Below, one piece after another: positions 4,521 through 60,670 of a stretch of 64,000 nucleotides of DNA (positions are counted from its first letter, which is position 1; every line of letters starts with the position of its first letter). Both the position numbers and the translations under genes were made by a program. The stretch lies in assembly GCF_003076275.1 (NCBI RefSeq), contig NZ_CP029064.1, positions 2,676,501 to 2,740,500 on the forward strand, written 5' to 3'. The DNA is from Microbulbifer sp. A4B17 (GTDB lineage Bacteria > Pseudomonadota > Gammaproteobacteria > Pseudomonadales > Cellvibrionaceae). The notes beneath the pieces are model-generated. The model was given only the letters and a program-made list of their open reading frames with translations. It was not told the DNA's origin and did not search any database.

Positions 4521-5336
4521 ATGAAGGTTGTTTCCTTTAACGTCAATAGTATTCGCACTCGCCTGCACCAGATGCAGGCCCTGGTAGACAACCATCAGCC
4601 CGATATCATCGGCCTACAGGAAACTAAAGTCACCGACGAAGATTTTCCAGTAGATGCGATAAAAGACCTGGGCTATGAGCTAATTTATTTTGGCCAAAAA
4701 ACACACTACGGCGTCGCCCTGCTCTCACGCCTGCCTTTTATTGATCGCGAATACGGCTTCCCAACCGATGCCAGCGACGCCCAGCGCCGCATGGTTGCCG
4801 GAAAGTTTGATATCGGTGGTCCTGAGCCCCTCACGGTTATCAATGGCTATTTCCCGCAAGGTGAAAATCGCGAGCACCCGGTTAAATTCCCGGCAAAGCA
4901 AAAGTACTACGCCGACCTGGACACCTACCTGCAAACCACTTGTAAGCCGGAAGCACCTGTATTGGTGATCGGCGATATGAATATTTCACCCAGCGACCAG
5001 GATATCGGTATTGGTGAACCCAATCGCAAGCGCTGGCTGCGCGATGGTAAATGCAGCTTCCTTCCAGAAGAGCGCGAGTGGCTTCAAAAAATTGAAGGCT
5101 GGGGGCTCACCGACACCTTCCGCGCACAAAATCCAGAAACAGATGATGTATTCAGCTGGTTCGACTACCGCAGCCGTGGGTTCGACCGCGACCCCAGACG
5201 CGGCCTGCGTATCGACTTGATTCTCGCCACCAACCCTCTTCTAGAAAAATGTGTCGGGACCGGCGTGGATTACGATATTCGGGCCATGGAGCGCCCATCA
5301 GATCACGCCCCCGTATGGGCCGAGTTTAAACTTTAA
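4521..5336 (+). CDS. xthA: Exodeoxyribonuclease III (AP endonuclease)
   Basis: A 271-residue endonuclease/exonuclease/phosphatase-fold enzyme (E. coli ExoIII is 268). It cuts DNA at abasic sites and removes 3' blocking groups in base-excision repair. Key motifs in order: NVNSIRTRL near the start, the metal-binding glutamate in [22 protein letters not shown], the DNA-loop stretch [28 protein letters not shown], and the terminal SDHAPVW with the catalytic Asp-His. The ATG at 4521 is chosen because GGGGGAAGAG lies directly before it and the product then starts [12 protein letters not shown] as usual for the family. A second terminator follows. Confidence 0.94.
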
Positions 5337-5345
5337 GCACTCGCT

Positions 5346-5375
5346 ATAGCCCACTGGTTCAGTGGGCTATTTTTA
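5346..5375 (+). terminator. Rho-independent terminator of xthA
   Basis: ATAGCCCAC/GTGGGCTAT stem with a seven-base loop followed by a T-run (TTTTTAA). It separates xthA from the arsenic locus. Confidence 0.85.
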
Positions 5376-5384
5376 AGACTATGA

Positions 5385-5404
5385 ATATATGGTTTTCCAT
5401 ATAT
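5385..5404. promoter_or_regulatory. Palindromic operator of the ars locus, copy 1
   Basis: A perfect 20-base palindrome, ATATATGGTTTTCCATATAT, 30 bases before the arsC-like start. A near-identical copy at 6241-6260 precedes the GAPDH-arsJ unit. ArsR/SmtB repressors bind AT-rich dyads over promoters, so this is most simply the binding site of the ArsR encoded at 5860. The repressor assignment is inference. Confidence 0.7.
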
Positions 5405-5434
5405 AATTGTTAAAAAGCCAAATGGAGCCCTCCA

Positions 5435-5863
5435 ATGAAAAGGCGTGTTCTGTTTGTATGTGCAGGAGATTCTGCCCGCTCACTGATGGCTGAAGCGCTA
5501 TTGCGTCATTACGGGGGCAGCTCTTACGAAGCCTGTGGTGCTGGGACCAATGCTCAGGCACCAGATCCACGAGCCCTGCAAGCACTGGAGCACCTGGGAA
5601 TTTCTACGGAGGGTCTCACTCCCAAAGTGATAGAAGATATGGCCGACCAATCTTTTGATTTGGTCATCACACTTTGCGACAAAAGCCGGCATGAGTATGT
5701 GCCCTCCCCAAAAGTCGACAAGGTAATTGCCTGGAACTTTAAGGAGCCGACAAAGCGACACTGCTTCTGCCCTTTTTACACCACGGCACGTGAGCTGAGC
5801 ACTCGTATCAAATTACTGGTCTTGGCCCAGGCCGAGGCGGATTTACGAAAAAGAGCAGCATGA
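5435..5863 (+). CDS. Low-molecular-weight phosphatase-fold arsenate reductase-like protein
   Basis: A 142-residue protein with the LMW-PTPase/ArsC fold. The phosphate loop CAGDSARS (Cys9 to Arg15, C-x5-R) sits at the end of the first strand, and DLVITLCDKSR carries a second cysteine. Thioredoxin-linked arsenate reductases use three cysteines, the third a few residues after the second. Here that place reads KSRHEY, without cysteine, while two extra cysteines occur later in RHCFCPF. It may therefore use a different cysteine, or act as a phosphatase or sensor. GGAG lies 7 bases upstream of the ATG. The stop overlaps the arsR start by four bases, so the two are translationally coupled. Confidence 0.75.
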   Translation: MKRRVLFVCAGDSARSLMAEALLRHYGGSSYEACGAGTNAQAPDPRALQALEHLGISTEGLTPKVIEDMADQSFDLVITLCDKSRHEYVPSPKVDKVIAWNFKEPTKRHCFCPFYTTARELSTRIKLLVLAQAEADLRKRAA

Positions 5864-6204
5864 ACCCAGTACAGTTTTACAAATGCCTGGCCGATGATAC
5901 ACGGCTACGCACACTACTCCTTATCGCACACGAGGAAGAGCTTTGCGTGTGCGAGTTAACGTCAGCACTTGGGTTGAGCCAGCCTAAAATTTCAAGGCAT
6001 CTTGCCTTATTAAGAAGCTCCGACCTCCTCATGGATCGCCGCCAGGGGCAGTGGGTGTTTTATCGGATCAACCCGGACCTGAACGCATGGGCAAAATCTG
6101 TACTGTTCGACACCTTGCAGGCGAACCAGCACTTTATTACCGAAGACCTCAATAACCTGATTCAAATGGGAGACCGGCCTGAGCGCACAAGTCTGTGCTG
6201 CTGA
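5860..6204 (+). CDS. arsR: ArsR-family arsenic-responsive repressor
   Basis: A 114-residue winged-helix repressor. The As(III)-sensing motif ELCVCEL (Cys-x-Cys) lies at the start of the helix before [14 protein letters not shown], the DNA-recognition helix, followed by the wing GQWVFYRI. The protein ends in a Cys-Cys pair that might add ligands. Binding of As(III) by the cysteines is known to release ArsR from DNA. It overlaps the upstream arsC-like gene (ATGA). Its likely targets are the two near-identical palindromes at 5385 and 6241, which would make the locus autoregulated as two transcription units. Confidence 0.88.
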
Positions 6205-6240
6205 TACTGCTTGCCGATCAAAGATTCAAATTATCCAGAT

Positions 6241-6260
6241 ATATATGGTTTCTCATATAT
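6241..6260. promoter_or_regulatory. Palindromic operator of the ars locus, copy 2
   Basis: ATATATGGTTTCTCATATAT differs from copy 1 (5385-5404) at two central positions and keeps the ATATATG/CATATAT arms. It lies 30 bases before the GAPDH start, the same distance as copy 1 from the arsC-like start, which supports a shared repressor acting on two promoters. Confidence 0.7.
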
Positions 6261-6289
6261 GCCTGACAGAAAACGGAGCAAAATTAACA

Positions 6290-7294
6290 ATGACCATCAA
6301 AATTGGGATCAATGGATTTGGCCGTATTGGACGGCTGGTACTGCGCGCTGCCTGGGATTGGCCTGAAGTAGAATTTGTCCAGATTAATGACCCTGCCGGC
6401 GATGCCACCACACTTGCCCACCTGCTCAACTTTGACTCTGTACACGGGCGATGGCACAAGGAAGCGAAAGCCGCTGGCAACACGATTCAGGTTGATGGGA
6501 AAACGATAGTCTGCAGCCGCAACACCACCATCGCAGATACAGATTGGCGCAACTGTGACCTGGTTGTAGAAGCTTCCGGGAAAATGAAAACCACCGAGCT
6601 ACTCCAGCCGTACCTGGATCAAGGGGTAAAGAAGGTGCTGGTCTCTGCACCAGTTAAAGAGGCTGGAGTACCGAACATTGTCCTTGGAGTGAATCAACAT
6701 ATTTACCAGCCGGACAAACACCAGATTATTACCGCCGCTTCCTGTACGACTAACTGCCTTGCTCCAGTAGTGAAAGTAATCCACGAAAATCTGGGGATCC
6801 GCCATGGTTCAATCACCACAATTCACGATATCACCAATACCCAGACCATCCTCGATGCACCCCATGCAGACTTGCGTAGAGCCCGCGCTTGTGGAGCCAG
6901 CCTGATTCCTACAACAACGGGTTCAGCTACAGCCATCGCCACCATTTTCCCAGAGCTGTCTGGTCGCCTGAACGGCCACGCCGTTCGTGTTCCCCTCGCA
7001 AACGCATCCATTACTGATTGCGTTTTCGAAGTGGAAACCGCCACTACCCCGGAAGCAGTAAACCAACTCTTTAAAGAAGCAGCAGAGGGTGAGCTGAAAG
7101 ATATTCTCGGCTACGAGGAAAGGCCTCTCGTTTCTGTGGATTACAAAACCGACCCCAGATCGAGCATTATTGATGCCCTCTCCACCATGGTCGTTAACGG
7201 CACCCAGGTAAAAGTTTACGCCTGGTATGACAATGAATGGGGTTACGCCAACCGCACGGCGGAATTGGCTCGAATGATTGGCACCATGGGCTAA
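6290..7294 (+). CDS. ArsJ-associated glyceraldehyde-3-phosphate dehydrogenase
   Basis: A 334-residue class I GAPDH. It has the NAD loop [16 protein letters not shown], the catalytic cysteine in ASCTTNC, and the C-terminal signature [11 protein letters not shown]. In ars loci this enzyme is known to use arsenate in place of phosphate, producing unstable 1-arseno-3-phosphoglycerate for export by ArsJ. Its place directly before arsJ and after an ars operator fits that role better than glycolysis. The start at 6290 gives the standard [12 protein letters not shown] opening. An upstream in-frame start at 6245 would overlap the operator. Confidence 0.92.
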
Positions 7295-7421
7295 GCAGCT
7301 AAAGTACAACGGGGCCGGAAGGAAAGAACACGCTGCACCTAAGGGGTACTGTAAATACCTTCCCATGAGTTCGTATTTTTTCTTCCCGCTTTTAGTAAGT
7401 AGCAGTACACAGAACGAGATC

Positions 7422-8669
7422 ATGCAGTTTCTTCACAACTTATCGTCGCCAATGCGCCAATACCTGCTGGTAACGGGCAATTACTGGGCATTTACTCTGA
7501 CTGACGGCGCTCTGCGCATGCTGGTGCTGCTGCATTTTCACCAGCTAGGCTACAACCCTTTACAGATTGCCCTGCTTTTCCTTTTCTACGAATTCTTTGG
7601 CGTAGTCACTAATCTTGTCGGCGGCTGGCTCGGCGCCCGGATTGGACTCAACCGGACCATGAATTTGGGGCTAGCCTTACAGGTTGTTGCTCTTTCTATG
7701 CTGCTGGTACCTAGTCAGTATCTCTCGGTCCCCTTGGTAATGGCCGCCCAAGCCCTTTCCGGTATTGCCAAAGACCTGAATAAAATGAGCGCGAAGAGTT
7801 CAATTAAATTGCTGGTTCCCGATCAGGCCAGTGGCGCTTTGTATCGATGGATCGCCCTGCTTACGGGCTCGAAAAATGCTTTAAAGGGCTTGGGCTTTTT
7901 TCTTGGTGGTGCCCTACTCGCCGCACTTGGCTTTCAAGGCGCGATTGCCTCGATGGCCATCGCTCTTGGAATAGTTTGGTTAATAAGCCTGAAATATCTT
8001 AAGCAGGATTTAGGGAAAGCCAAGGCAAAGAGTCCTTTTAAGGATGTCTTTTCCAAGAGCCCCGCAGTCAACATATTGTCAGCCGCGCGCCTTCTTTTGT
8101 TTGCTTCCCGGGATGTCTGGTTTGTTATTGCCCTGCCCGTTTTCCTGGCCAGCCAATTTAATTGGGATCACTGGCAAGTAGGTGCCTTCCTGGCATCCTG
8201 GGTGATTGGTTACGGTATTGTGCAAACCCAGGCCCCGATGTTCACAACAACACGCTCTTCTCTACCGCCGGATGGCCGAGCCGCACTTTTCTGGGCAATT
8301 GCACTTGCTACCGTGCCAGTATTGATCGCGATCGCGCTATTTAAGGGGGTTGCCCCACAGATTGCAGTCCTGGGTGGACTGTTGATCTTTGCCGTAATTT
8401 TCGCCGTAAATTCGTCCCTGCACAGCTATTTGATTGTTGCATATGCGCGGGAAGATGGCGTCTCTATGGATGTCGGCTTCTACTATATGGCAAATGCTAC
8501 CGGGCGCTTGCTGGGAACATTACTTTCAGGGTGGGTATTTCAAACCAAGGGTTTAGAGGCCTGTCTACTTATTTCCAGCGCCTTCATATTGTTGGCTGCA
8601 CTGGTATCACTGGGCTTACCTAAACATAAATCCAGTAGTCAGGAAGTTGGCAGTCTAAGTCGAAGCTGA
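7422..8669 (+). CDS. arsJ: ArsJ, major-facilitator organoarsenical efflux permease
   Basis: A 415-residue, roughly 12-helix MFS protein of the inner membrane. The first helices read YWAFTLTDGALRMLVLLHF and FFGVVTNLVGGWLGARIG, the latter with the MFS loop 2-3 pattern, and match ArsJ. It exports 1-arseno-3-phosphoglycerate made by the preceding GAPDH, which then breaks down to arsenate outside (established for ArsJ). The reading frame is open back to 7278 and overlaps the GAPDH end, so starts at 7365 or 7422 are both possible; 7422 gives the usual short N-terminal tail. There is no arsB or acr3 in the window, so this looks like an arsenate-only resistance route. Confidence 0.9.
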   Translation: MQFLHNLSSPMRQYLLVTGNYWAFTLTDGALRMLVLLHFHQLGYNPLQIALLFLFYEFFGVVTNLVGGWLGARIGLNRTMNLGLALQVVALSMLLVPSQYLSVPLVMAAQALSGIAKDLNKMSAKSSIKLLVPDQASGALYRWIALLTGSKNALKGLGFFLGGALLAALGFQGAIASMAIALGIVWLISLKYLKQDLGKAKAKSPFKDVFSKSPAVNILSAARLLLFASRDVWFVIALPVFLASQFNWDHWQVGAFLASWVIGYGIVQTQAPMFTTTRSSLPPDGRAALFWAIALATVPVLIAIALFKGVAPQIAVLGGLLIFAVIFAVNSSLHSYLIVAYAREDGVSMDVGFYYMANATGRLLGTLLSGWVFQTKGLEACLLISSAFILLAALVSLGLPKHKSSSQEVGSLSRS

Positions 8670-51900: not shown

Positions 51901-52581
51901 TTACACAGATTTGAATTTCAGTTCTAACAAAGGTGCCACTACATCACTATCCTGCGTGCGAATCCAAAGCATTTCCTCCTCAGAATAGAGTTCAGCAACA
52001 ATCGCGTTTGCCAACTCACAATCATGGGAGATCAAGTGCTGCGCCAACCACTCTGCAGCAAAACTACGCTCCTTGCCGAGAGTACCCTGTGAGCGCTTGT
52101 ACAAATTTTTAACAGCCTTCCGCGTATATTCAATCGTGGCTACACCTGGCGTAGCCTCAACCATCTTGCGGTGCAGCTTCTTGCTTTTTTGATTAATAAT
52201 ATAAGGAAGCACCTGCCCTGAAACATAGTCGTGGGTGACAGCACCTTTACAGGGGCAGTTGTAGGACTTTCTGTTCGCAAATATTTTCTTCAGCGCATTC
52301 AGGTGGTTATTGGTTTTGTAAGCAGATCGAGCTGCCAATCCAGCATAACCAATAGACAGTGCCGTCCCAGCGACAACCAAGCCAATTCCTGTTGCCGAAG
52401 TTGCTGCCGCTGCACCGGTAGCCAATCCTGTCAAAGTGGCTCCTGTAGCCGTCTGCGCCCCCCATACCCCGTAGTATGCAGCGGAGCCAACGCCCCCAGC
52501 CACAGCCTTCGCAGTACGGTGCCTGCTGACAACTTTGCCAAAGTTGAGTGGTGGACGGATATCAATATTACTTTGTGGCAC
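51901..52581 (-). CDS. Orphan protein with a glycine/alanine-rich membrane segment
   Basis: A 226-residue protein. Residues about 27-83 are a hydrophobic, glycine- and alanine-rich pair of helices (AVAGGVGSAAYYGVWGAQTATGATL, TGAAAATSATGIGLVVAGTALSIGYAG), like glycine-zipper pore or translocation modules. The C-terminal half is soluble, with YNCPCKGAVTHDYV (Cys-x-Cys and His) and a helical end. It starts at a GTG preceded by GGAG. There is no signal peptide and no neighbouring partner. Glycine-zipper segments of this sort occur in contact-dependent effectors and in phage or bacteriocin proteins, but no firm family is recognised. Confidence 0.6.
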   Translation of the reverse strand: MPQSNIDIRPPLNFGKVVSRHRTAKAVAGGVGSAAYYGVWGAQTATGATLTGLATGAAAATSATGIGLVVAGTALSIGYAGLAARSAYKTNNHLNALKKIFANRKSYNCPCKGAVTHDYVSGQVLPYIINQKSKKLHRKMVEATPGVATIEYTRKAVKNLYKRSQGTLGKERSFAAEWLAQHLISHDCELANAIVAELYSEEEMLWIRTQDSDVVAPLLELKFKSV

Positions 52582-57424: not shown

Positions 57425-58279
57425 ATGTACCAACCATACGCATATGCTCAAGGGATCCCTGGACAACCACAAAACTATACGGTACCTCCGATCAATCCTG
57501 TTATCGGTCTCACCCCGCATCAACCATATCTTCCCCTGCAACAATTGGCACCACAAGGACTGTTAGGGGAGTTTGTGAGCCGAGCAGCACCGGTTATTGG
57601 CGGAATTGTGGGCGGCCCACAGGGTCAACTGATCAATGCACTCGGTGGGCTGGGACAGTTACTACCCTTCCAGGCAGTACCGCAGGTCCCGCAACAATTT
57701 GCTCCCCATGTTCCCCAGCAGTTTGTACCGCAAATTCCCCCGCAATACGCTCATCAATTTGCCCCCCAAGGCTACCTCAGTGAACTGATAAACCGCGCAG
57801 CCCCCGTGCTGGCTAACTACATCAATAACCCGCAAGCACAGCTGATCAATGCAGCCACCCAGCTAGGGCAATATTTGCCCTACCAGGCGGCTCCTCAACT
57901 GGCACCTCAAGGCCTTCTGGGTGAATTCGTAAGCCGTGCTGCCCCTGTTATTGGTAACTACATTGGTGGACCCCAGGGGCAATTTCTGAACAATGTGGCG
58001 CGCTTAGGCCATTTACTGCCCTTCCAAGCCGCTCCACACCTCGTCCCTCAAGGGTACATCGGTCAGCCGGTCAATCAGTTGGCCCCATTTATCCCCGAGC
58101 AGTACGGAACTGTACCTCCACAGGCTTTCACTCCACTGAACCAACCTGTGCCATTCCAGGCTGTACCACAACCACCCCAGCAACCCTTCCAAAGTTTGGC
58201 AGGGATTGGTCAGCCTTTGGCCTACCAGGCGATGCCACAACCAAACTCAGCTTTGCAACAGCAGGCCTACCTGCACTAG
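57425..58279 (+). CDS. Proline/glutamine-rich protein with three internal repeats
   Basis: A 284-residue protein of unknown family. Three copies of a 43-44-residue unit occur at residues 42-85, 113-155 and 160-203, each reading approximately APQGxLxExxxRAAPVxxxY, then a GGPQxQ-type turn, a short helix LxNxxxxLG, and LPFQA. A degenerate fourth unit covers 208-247. Between and after them run Pro/Gln spacers (PQVPQQFAPHVPQQF). The repeat helices are hydrophobic and amphipathic, yet there is no signal peptide and few charges. GAGGAG precedes the ATG. It is the first of three genes with the I9-like protein and a subtilase, so it may be the protease's substrate, a scaffold or a secreted structural protein (inference). 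Confidence 0.65.
   Translation: MYQPYAYAQGIPGQPQNYTVPPINPVIGLTPHQPYLPLQQLAPQGLLGEFVSRAAPVIGGIVGGPQGQLINALGGLGQLLPFQAVPQVPQQFAPHVPQQFVPQIPPQYAHQFAPQGYLSELINRAAPVLANYINNPQAQLINAATQLGQYLPYQAAPQLAPQGLLGEFVSRAAPVIGNYIGGPQGQFLNNVARLGHLLPFQAAPHLVPQGYIGQPVNQLAPFIPEQYGTVPPQAFTPLNQPVPFQAVPQPPQQPFQSLAGIGQPLAYQAMPQPNSALQQQAYLH
57548..58166 (+). repeat. Coding repeats of the Pro/Gln-rich protein
   Basis: Three diverged 130-base units start at about 57548, 57761 and 57902, with a weaker fourth near 58046. The third is closest to the first in protein sequence (LLGEFVSRAAPVIG in both), which suggests duplication followed by exchange. Synonymous positions differ, so the duplications are not recent. Confidence 0.65.
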
Positions 58280-58370
58280 AGACGCATACGGGACGGGGCC
58301 TTGCGCCCTTTCCCATCAGGCGAGCTCGCCTCAGGACAACTTCAAATAGCGCAGTAATAGTGAGAGAAAA

Positions 58371-58604
58371 ATGAAGAAGTTTGAGCAATATGTAGCTGTG
58401 CCCAATCGGAAAGTATCAGCGAGTACTCTGGAGCTAGAGGAATTAGTGAAGGAAGCTTCGAATTGCCCCGATGTGAAAGACGTTACTTTACGAAAAAGTA
58501 ACGTCACGCTCGTGGCCACACCTGATGCCGTCAATGATTTAAGAAAGAAACTTGGGGGCAAGGTAATTATTGACCCGGATCAACCGATTCATCCTCTCAA
58601 TTAG
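58371..58604 (+). CDS. Small protein resembling a stand-alone I9 propeptide/inhibitor
   Basis: A 77-residue protein with no signal peptide. The second half, VTLRKSNVTLVATPDAVNDLRKKLGG followed by KVIIDPDQPIHPLN, has the layout of a subtilisin I9 prodomain: a beta strand, a helix, and a strand ending in an acidic pair with a tail that could reach the protease cleft. In I9 domains that C-terminal tail occupies the active site. The next gene is a subtilase, 79 bases downstream, that has no obvious I9 domain of its own, so this protein may be a separate chaperone or inhibitor for it. Similarity is by pattern, not search. Confidence 0.55.
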   Translation: MKKFEQYVAVPNRKVSASTLELEELVKEASNCPDVKDVTLRKSNVTLVATPDAVNDLRKKLGGKVIIDPDQPIHPLN

Positions 58605-58689
58605 GACTGAAACCCACTCGATTCACAACTTTCAGATGTTTTGCACGCGTGCTAAGTCAGTACCGCACTGAAAGCGAAGGAACATGAAC

Positions 58690-60597
58690 ATGACTGAATC
58701 CCGACAAGAAAAGGCCGCAGGAGAACCTTCGGTCGAGGTTGCAGAAAAAGTCGAGTTGCTTATTTCGCCTCGCCGTAGCCTTATGGCCAAGTCCATAGGC
58801 GTGCAGCCATTGAGCGCGGGCTCAATGCACAACGTGATCACCACCATTGCAAGACAAGCCGGCTGTGAAGTGCTTCGCGAAATACGCCCAGGTAGAAAGC
58901 TGAAAACACTCTCATCAGCAGATGAGGCGACCAGTATTTATAAAGTTCGTATGGATGTGGATGCTGCCGCAGCTCTCTACCAAACGACACCTCCAAATGT
59001 GGCTGTCGAACTTGACTCCCTACTCTCCTACGGGCAGGCAAGTTACTCCCCGACCTTTTCCGCCGTTTTTGCACAACAGCCAGGTCTACTGCGTGAGTAC
59101 CATGTCCAAGCTCAGCAGGTACACTTCCGCGTTATCGGTGCAAAAGGCGAACCGATACGCGACGCACAAATAATTATTGAAAGCGCTGGATTTCCTCAAG
59201 AAGGCGTTACCAATAATAAAGGGGAAGTAGCCCTCAATATTTTTGCGCAAAGTGGCGGCGCTCAGGTGAAATCACTTCTGATCCGCCCAGCCAAAGATTT
59301 CTGGAACAAATATATTCGCTGCCCATCTCTATCCCTTTCGGGTGTTAACCTGGTGAAGCTCCAGCCCCTAAGTGAGGCAATACCCAACTTCCCCAATGAT
59401 GCATCATATGGCTGGGGACAAAAGTACATGGGCCTGGACCAGCTGCCCGATGAATATACCGGCAAAGGCATCAAGATCGCGATCATTGACTCCGGCGCGG
59501 ACAACAAGCACCCGATATTGGGCCACTTAAAAAATGGTATCGATGTAACCAACAACTACGATACCGAGAGCTGGGCTCAAGATATCGTCGGCCACGGCAC
59601 CCACTGCGCAGGAATCATTACCGGGCAACCCCCAGGATCCGAAGCCATCCGAGGTTTCGCCCCGGAAGCTGAAATTTACATTTTTAAAGTTTTCCCTGGA
59701 GGGCAATTTAGCAGCCTGATCGATGCTCTCTCGCACTGCATTGAAATCGGCGTCGATGTGGTGAACATGAGCCTCGGCAGCTCTGAATCATCAGAAGCAG
59801 TTGAGCAGCAAATCGAGGAAGCTGTACAACATGGCATAGCTTGTATAGTCGCTGCAGGTAATAATGGCGGCGCAGTTCAATACCCCGCCAGATCACCCAA
59901 TACCATGGCCGTGAGTGCCTTCGGAATGCTGAATGAATTCCCCAAGGACTCCTGGGAAGCGCAAACAGTCATCCCCTCAACAGCCACAGCAGACGGTCTG
60001 TTTATTCCGACATTCAGCGCTTTTGGACAGGAAATATCCGTCGCCGCACCCGGGGTAGGCATAGTCTCATCTGTCCCAGACAAAGGATTTGATGTGCAAT
60101 CGGGCACATCAATGGCTGCGCCACACATTACCGGTATGGCTGCTCTTTTACTCGCTCATCATCCTTTATTTAAAGGTGTATTTAGACAAAAGGATGTATC
60201 TCGGGTGACCGGCCTATTCCAGCTTATCCGCTCCCTGGCCGCGCCAATGCCGCTAGGCGCAGAGAGAGTGGGTGCCGGTGTTCCCAAGCTGTTCGGGGTC
60301 GGGTCAGCTTTTGAGTCCGCGAAAGAACATGCCCGGGCCGGTGGTGTCCACGCCACTACGACACAGGGACCACCCCCTGCAACCCCCTACTCTGGCTTTA
60401 CCATGAGTCCCCTACATGGCTTCCCGCCTCAGACATCGCCCAATTGGCAGGGGCAATTTGTGCAGGGGGGTTACTACCCATCGGACCTGGCTGCAGTTAG
60501 CCCGCAGCAATCGGTAATGGGCAGTTTTCCAGACGGATTCGCACTGAGCGCCTATGGCATGCAGTTCGTTGATCCCCGTGCGATCCGATATTGGTAA
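58690..60597 (+). CDS. Subtilisin-family serine protease without a signal peptide
   Basis: A 635-residue S8 protease. Catalytic residues are clear: Asp267 in IAIIDSGADNKHP, His302 in GHGTHCAGI, Asn391 in AAGNNG and Ser474 in SGTSMAAPH. The N-terminal 110 residues form an unassigned domain (VELLISPRRSLMAKSIGV onward). Residues about 145-185 (VHFRVIGAKGEPIRDAQIIIES) look like a carboxypeptidase-regulatory-type beta domain. The last 70 residues are Pro/Gln/Gly-rich, echoing the spacers of the upstream repeat protein. No signal peptide or anchor is seen, so it acts in the cytoplasm or leaves by another route. The ATG at 58690 fits AAGGAAC better than 58684. Confidence 0.88.
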   Translation: MTESRQEKAAGEPSVEVAEKVELLISPRRSLMAKSIGVQPLSAGSMHNVITTIARQAGCEVLREIRPGRKLKTLSSADEATSIYKVRMDVDAAAALYQTTPPNVAVELDSLLSYGQASYSPTFSAVFAQQPGLLREYHVQAQQVHFRVIGAKGEPIRDAQIIIESAGFPQEGVTNNKGEVALNIFAQSGGAQVKSLLIRPAKDFWNKYIRCPSLSLSGVNLVKLQPLSEAIPNFPNDASYGWGQKYMGLDQLPDEYTGKGIKIAIIDSGADNKHPILGHLKNGIDVTNNYDTESWAQDIVGHGTHCAGIITGQPPGSEAIRGFAPEAEIYIFKVFPGGQFSSLIDALSHCIEIGVDVVNMSLGSSESSEAVEQQIEEAVQHGIACIVAAGNNGGAVQYPARSPNTMAVSAFGMLNEFPKDSWEAQTVIPSTATADGLFIPTFSAFGQEISVAAPGVGIVSSVPDKGFDVQSGTSMAAPHITGMAALLLAHHPLFKGVFRQKDVSRVTGLFQLIRSLAAPMPLGAERVGAGVPKLFGVGSAFESAKEHARAGGVHATTTQGPPPATPYSGFTMSPLHGFPPQTSPNWQGQFVQGGYYPSDLAAVSPQQSVMGSFPDGFALSAYGMQFVDPRAIRYW

Positions 60598-60631: not shown

Positions 60632-60670
60632 AGGCAAGACCGTAGTAATTCTACGGCCTTGCCTTTTTTT
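60632..60670 (+). terminator. Terminator of the subtilase cassette
   Basis: A long stem (AGGCAAG-CCGTAG pairing with CTACGG-CTTGCCT) with a five-base loop and seven T residues, 35 bases after the subtilase stop. It ends the three-gene unit. Confidence 0.9.

Follow-up and report, generated by a model that had tools for sequence, protein, structure and literature searches.

We describe a three-gene cassette in a 64,000-nucleotide stretch of the Microbulbifer sp. A4B17 genome (contig NZ_CP029064.1, positions 2,676,501 to 2,740,500 of the forward strand; genome of 5.04 Mb), hereafter called the window. The cassette encodes, in order on the plus strand, a Pro/Gln-rich repeat protein, a small protein of 77 residues, and a protease of the S8 (subtilase) family, and it is followed by a terminator-like hairpin (Table 1), so that the gene order and terminator given in a preliminary description of the window are confirmed. 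Sequence comparison shows that the protease retains an N-terminal domain of which the small protein is a free-standing homologue, and distant genomes contain all three genes in this order. The reading we favor, and to which we give about an even chance of being correct, is that an intracellular subtilase works with a propeptide-like inhibitor supplied in trans and with a glycine-zipper repeat partner that would most likely be its substrate.

The Small Protein and the N-Terminal Domain of the Protease

The window protease is a member of the S8 family (Pfam S8, E 4.1e-45) with Asp, His, Asn, and Ser all in place and with a hydrophilic N terminus that, by eye, lacks a signal peptide, in agreement with the preliminary description. 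That description had also taken the protease to be without an I9-like domain of its own, and here it needs correcting: the protease has, at residues ~20–116, a divergent domain that resembles a prodomain and is homologous to the small protein, though Pfam Inhibitor_I9 (PF05922) matches neither the window S8 at E ≤ 1 nor eight cassette S8s at E ≤ 10 (the model matches three places in the window's genome, none of them in the cassette). The accompanying idea of a separately encoded propeptide survives in part, in that the small protein is a free-standing homologue of the S8 N-terminal domain but not the protease's missing prodomain.

At E ≤ 1e-3, a hidden Markov model (HMM) trained on the small proteins alone picks out the N-terminal domain in 40 of 57 S8 frames, with a best value of 4.5e-15, and the frames of 25 control S8 loci give nothing better than E 2.3. 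Profile–profile comparison aligns the small-protein family with residues ~20–116 of the cassette S8s (probability 97, E 1.1e-10). Because the AlphaFold model of the S8 reaches a pLDDT of only 33 (three sequences), the assignment of its N-terminal domain rests on homology, and because the seed of the small-protein family included the window sequence, the link of the window small protein to other genomes also leans on gene position and motif. As a lone query, the 77-residue protein matches no genome but its own at E ≤ 0.001 among 369 genomes of the class, the next-best match (E 0.006) lying inside an 862-residue frame, and it has no match on the plasmids searched.

Inhibitor_I9 matches none of 36 small proteins at E ≤ 1, and no library model scores over its cut-off for the small protein of the window. 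The topology predicted for the small protein has a pLDDT of 81, and there is no I9 chain among its best 50 Foldseek or best 50 VIA-align matches. A PDB profile search with the wider small-protein family gave nothing below E 0.24; ubiquitin chains retrieved with the Microbulbifer small proteins were multi-copy, with no single passing stretch for the best of them, and were rejected as spurious.

All 42 small proteins carry the acidic cap motif [E/D]x[D/N], and all but one of the 46 S8 frames examined have ExD, the exception being a frame that is cut short. We take Tyr77 to be the last residue of the BPN' propeptide, and hence used the residue six positions after the cap Asp (D+6) as P1. F occupies this position in 28 of 42 small proteins, and F, L, or I in 37; of 45 S8 N-terminal domains, 16 have L there, 9 have M, and none has F. 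In subtilisin propeptides an acidic pair caps helices of the catalytic domain, the cap Asp of BPN' being residue 71 (PMC6993865; this and the papers cited below are quoted for the parts of them available to us). We consider the small protein likely to be an inhibitor acting in trans. A role confined to folding the protease in trans, with no regulation, would agree with the help that subtilisin propeptides give to enzyme folding (PMC6993865), but it seems rather improbable to us, as an N-terminal domain of the same family is already present in the S8 and the tail of the small protein is more P1-like than that of the S8 domain.

Linkage of the Three Genes

In our first searches all three genes were present jointly in 5 of 58 genomes, all of the same genus, the repeat gene of one of these carriers being divided between two contigs. 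For the three genes dN/dS is 0.035–0.075, as calculated for pairs among three relatives and one pair with a fourth; pairs that include the window, with saturated synonymous sites, give no ratio.

Beyond the genus, an S8 profile scored above 300 bits in 6 of 398 Pseudomonadota genomes, the window's own included. The same three genes, in the same order, are found in one genome of the same class (G697) and in two genomes of one genus in another class (G738 and G768), while G423 and G754 have a shorter kind of S8 without the two partner genes. A refined S8 profile (>400 bits) identified 37 of 195 genomes in the family of G697, which we presume to be Burkholderiaceae, and 6 of 198 in that to which G738 belongs. 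Independent searches of those 195 genomes returned 34 with the small protein (>70 bits), of which 33 fall within the S8 set of 37, and 35 with the repeat unit, of which 34 do; the overlap expected under independence is ~6.5 genomes, kinship among the genomes being ignored. Some loci are incomplete or divergent: G850 (L223) has a decayed remnant in which the small gene runs into an S8 fragment, G845 lacks the small gene and its repeat gene, ending in TLH, is degraded, the partner genes of G818 are divergent (by eye), and in G965, G976, G884, and G889 the missing neighbor would fall past the contig end.

The small gene is present in 42 of the 46 loci read (>400 bits), 41 by HMM (weakly in L178 and L179) and one, L172, by eye. 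Over 40 loci the median distance is 86 bases from repeat to small gene (range 51 to 345) and 35 bases from small to S8 gene (range -24 to 987). A constant fourth gene was sought among the loci and not found, the most widespread neighbor cluster being present in 11 of 45. In two genomes of one genus, a probable transcription regulator, BTAD-like by eye, lies directly upstream of the repeat gene (L103 9145-9969, minus strand; L104 4045-4869, plus strand). In a tree of catalytic domains, 43 cassette S8s share one side of a branch (support 96/90), with 10 control S8s and 9 shorter relatives on the other side and a long-branch warning; the tree kept 10 of the 25 controls, included the four other Microbulbifer S8s, lost the window S8 to a length filter, and left out L047, L140, L180, and L182.

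The functional linkage put forward in the preliminary description is thus strengthened by an order kept across classes of Pseudomonadota and by co-occurrence in independent whole-genome searches. It had named separation of the genes in relatives as the contrary outcome, and this did not arise, the genes being kept together. That the cassette consists of unlinked neighbors, an ordinary protease beside two unrelated ORFs, could be argued from the 5 of 58 genomes of the first searches, but it is contradicted by order and co-occurrence in distant genomes, and we regard it as extremely improbable. Peptide maturation or regulated proteolysis, the functions suggested earlier, would remain our best guess.

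Genomic Site and a Possible Defense Role

The window and three other carriers have the same flanks, a tRNA-Pro gene or matching stretch on one side and an M61-like gene on the other, the latter being found in 40 of 40 genus members searched. Two close relatives, G029 and G009, lack the cassette, and in them a tRNA-Pro-like stretch lies in the 1.1 and 1.3 kb that separate the thioesterase gene from the M61-like gene; such empty sites indicate that the cassette is a discrete unit, gained or lost whole. Of three more distant cassette-less genomes, one has a gap of 0.5 kb, one a gap of 3.2 kb, and one no thioesterase in the fetched stretch. A gene for a LysR regulator and one for a cytochrome P460 (54215-55897) separate the thioesterase gene from tRNA-Pro in the window; neither has a match in the stretches of three other carriers (L042-L044).

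The patchy presence of the cassette next to a tRNA gene, and its absence from that site in G029 and G009, would suit a defense or cell-death module in which a stress or phage signal lifts the inhibitor and freed membrane-inserting peptides kill the cell. A signal-less protease, glycine-zipper repeats, and a match of the window S8 to the PADLOC subtilase model (E 4.3e-32, together with a weak match to IetS) are also consistent with such a module. However, the PADLOC model carries no name beyond "subtilase", and it is the catalytic domain that it matches; the protease alone among the window's three proteins matches PADLOC, the repeat and small proteins having no match at E ≤ 0.1, and no partner gene of the same system was found. 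Furthermore, the commonest neighbor cluster is limited to the 11 of 45 loci mentioned above, the neighbors not having been searched for defense genes. We judge a defense role unlikely.

The Repeat Protein

The 284-residue repeat protein of the window, with 16% P and 17% Q, contains three 40-residue repeats starting at residues 43, 114, and 161, in line with what was first described, and has no signal peptide by eye. Repeats were parsed in 45 of 46 loci (L181 has none; L080, L152, and L160 are mis-framed or interrupted). Because the first parse pattern required LPF-like unit ends, we recounted units from their PQG starts alone, which are present in 39 of 45 repeat proteins. In this count LP[FYL] occurs 34–58 residues after 111 of 123 unit starts, compared with 34 expected at random positions in the same proteins, and the commonest unit length is 46. 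GxxxGxxxG is found 3.39 times per unit vs. 1.01 in shuffles, among 120 units chosen with an LPF-like end. Divergent repeat proteins have near-perfect 47-residue repeats, seven in G738 and six in G768, and a C-terminal [TYFM][LIVM]H is shared by 37 of 45 repeat proteins (YLH in the window copy).

No library model scores above its cut-off for the window repeat protein, PHROGs gives no match at E ≤ 0.1, and the glycine-zipper Pfam models none at E ≤ 1; glycine-zipper matches in the relative L103 are sub-threshold, at 15.4 bits (cut-off 24.2) and 14.7 bits (cut-off 25). Pfam DUF3104 and PE exceed their cut-offs on the L144 repeat protein and were set aside as compositional matches, and the few short library matches in other relatives' repeat proteins are thought to be of the same nature.

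The P4–P1 tetrapeptides of the small proteins (LSLF, LKPF, LTPF, and IHPL) resemble the repeat ends (LLPF, MLPF, and FLPF). In 31 of 37 loci, ≤9% of repeat-protein tetrapeptides score as well against the tail as the putative cut site does, and a median of 2.3% of other small-protein tetrapeptides pick the site equally well.

Catalytic Residues and the Proposed Mechanism

In the alignment, every one of the 42 loci that have the small gene keeps Asp, His, Asn, and Ser together with the motif GTSMAxP. Among five S8s without it are two Streptomyces plasmid copies that have lost Ser and Asn, these two being close kin and the sample small; L180, which has assembly Ns ahead of the serine motif, was not counted among the S8s without the small gene. 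Over these few loci the small gene tracks an intact serine motif, the pattern to be expected of a small protein that holds an active protease in check.

From these data we infer inhibition, a cut site, and peptide release. The small protein would dock on the S8 as a subtilisin propeptide does, with [E/D]x[D/N] capping helices of the catalytic domain and the tail occupying the S4–S1 pockets, and the protease would stay off in the cell. Once the inhibitor had been removed or displaced by a competitor, the protease would cut the repeat protein behind the terminal L-P-F of each glycine-zipper repeat, yielding hydrophobic peptides of about 40–48 residues. That the repeat protein is a substrate cut at LPF we rate just short of an even chance, and that the released peptides are membrane-active, with membrane insertion guessed from the glycine zipper, we rate as doubtful. 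A bolder version, speculative and unlikely in its entirety, would have a tandem glycine-zipper polyprotein kept in the cytoplasm with a dedicated subtilase and, as a safety catch, a duplicate of the protease's own prodomain adapted to imitate the LPF cut site; the active site would tend to decay once the catch is lost, the peptides would disrupt membranes of self or rivals, and the whole would be a widespread, undescribed bacterial module.

Several observations weigh against the inhibitor-and-substrate reading. The window's own S8 N-terminal domain scores E 0.25 against the small-protein HMM, and the profile match with the Microbulbifer S8s alone is no more than suggestive, at E 0.026. DUF5678 is matched by four small proteins, that of the window falling under its cut-off, and the structure matches listed for the small protein are generic ferredoxin-like folds. 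The tail fits the site poorly in 6 of 37 loci (L144, L149, L155, L156, L164, and L169), and the likeness of LPF and tail, spotted post hoc among kindred loci, is to be taken as a lead. One locus with the small gene, L182, has an S8 interrupted by a stop codon; of those without it, L173 has a fully intact S8, and L140 and G845 keep the catalytic residues, with RTSAAAA and GTSMAAS replacing GTSMAxP. On the Streptomyces plasmids (L079 5156-7704; L080 about 5000-7647) a Q-rich protein lies directly ahead of the S8 without Ser and Asn, a pseudoprotease form of the cassette without the small gene, and therefore cutting may not be the common function.

The Streptomyces case argues that binding, beyond cutting, may matter, and keeps alive an explanation in which peptide release is incidental: the repeat protein would assemble itself into a structure or form condensates, with the S8 fold as its scaffold or as a maturase that trims it, and the small protein would help with folding. 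Besides the retention of the Q-rich protein beside an S8 lacking Ser and Asn, this explanation draws on the Q-rich linkers and on a unit identity of 0.83 within one protein compared with 0.70 between proteins. It is countered by the intact serine motif in all 42 loci with the small gene and by LP[FYL] after 111 of 123 unit starts, and we see it as a possible, though not a likely, account.

Features of the Window and Related Pairings

Table 1. Cassette features in the window, with related pairings found elsewhere
Feature	Position	Strand	Basis or remark
Repeat protein gene, 284 aa, P/Q-rich, C-terminal Tyr-Leu-His	57425..58279	+	ORF; kin in 4 other Microbulbifer genomes
Repeat unit 1, PQGLLGEFVSRAAPVIGG...LLPF	57551..57670	+	
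Repeat unit 2, PQGYLSELINRAAPVLANY...YLPY	57764..57883	+	
Repeat unit 3, PQGLLGEFVSRAAPVIGNY...LLPF	57905..58024	+	
Small protein gene, 77 aa; free-standing homologue of S8 N-terminal domain	58371..58604	+	
Small-protein DPD cap motif and tail; Ile-His-Pro-Leu at P4-P1 spacing of subtilisin propeptide	58572..58601	+	Motif role: PMC6993865 (available part)
S8 protease gene, 635 aa from start common to relatives; alternative start 58684 gives 637 aa	58690..60597	+	
S8 N-terminal prodomain-like domain	58744..59037	+	Homology
Weak carboxypeptidase-regulatory/Ig-like segment of S8	59110..59238	+	E 0.02-0.15, below cut-off
S8 catalytic domain; codons Asp 59488, His 59593, Asn 59860, Ser 60109	59461..60171	+	
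Terminator hairpin, then T run	60632..60664	+	-23.6 kcal/mol, z -4.8
Shorter S8 and small gene pairs (other loci)	L081 4674-6424, L082 4593-6399, L083 4821-6420, L089-L092		

The carboxypeptidase-regulatory/Ig-like segment is found again in a distant relative, at E 1.1e-5 and likewise below cut-off. Elsewhere in the window, a 226-residue ORF (51901-52581, minus strand) has a long Gly/Ala-rich hydrophobic stretch and no notable Pfam or NCBIfam match.

Shorter signal-less S8s (~500 residues) of Rhizobiaceae and Paracoccus plasmids have a protein of 80–83 residues encoded 2–15 bases downstream, a second pairing of a protease with a small gene; the small-protein HMM does not match the 80–83-residue proteins of L081-L083. 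In L047 (7268-9191, minus strand) a 525-residue S8 is followed by a 117-residue protein whose C-terminal half is propeptide-end-like by eye.

Comparison with Known Systems

Stand-alone propeptide-like subtilase inhibitors have been described in fungi, plants, and protists, and the nearest functional parallel to the cassette is Plasmodium SUB1 with its stand-alone propeptide mimic SUB1-ProM, other such mimics being the P. ostreatus proteinase A inhibitor 1, the yeast proteinase B inhibitor, Arabidopsis SPI-1, and TgMIC5 (PMC6993865). As in the cassette, SUB1-ProM and its kin are small, free-standing, and propeptide-like and have a C-terminal tail as well as acidic cap residues; the gene for SUB1-ProM adjoins subtilase genes, and SUB1 has its own propeptide (PMC6993865). 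Unlike the cassette, they are eukaryotic, and the available part of that paper mentions no repeat protein in the unit (PMC6993865); for the cassette small protein, in contrast to this group, inhibition is a prediction and the Pfam I9 model gives no match.

Among bacterial systems, QhpE and Isp1 with IPI are the nearest parallels that we found. QhpE is a cytoplasmic S8 that acts on a precursor from the same operon, but this precursor is a modified subunit and no separate propeptide-like gene is mentioned in the part of the source available (PMC7876137), whereas the cassette has no modifying enzyme that we could see; the window S8 scores 73.5 bits against the QhpE model NF049966, below its cut-off of 165. 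Bacillus subtilis Isp1 and IPI likewise combine an intracellular bacterial subtilisin with a separate protein inhibitor (PMC3901451), the fold of IPI being Ig-like, unlike that predicted for the cassette small protein. The repeat protein shares dense GxxxG spacing with glycine-zipper proteins (Pfam Rick_17kDa_Anti and Gly-zipper_Omp) but differs from them in its several units per protein, their LPF ends, the [TYFM][LIVM]H C terminus, and the absence, by eye, of a signal peptide. The three-part unit is not present in SUB1/ProM, QhpE, or Isp1/IPI as far as the available parts of their descriptions go, and we found no description of the three-gene cassette in the literature searched, beyond whose scope much literature lies. 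Set beside these systems, the cassette provides a bacterial candidate for a stand-alone subtilase inhibitor whose origin can be read, as a homologue of a domain in the same protease, and its conserved repeat protein may be a multi-copy peptide precursor; if this is true, the cassette could represent a new way of storing and releasing peptides.

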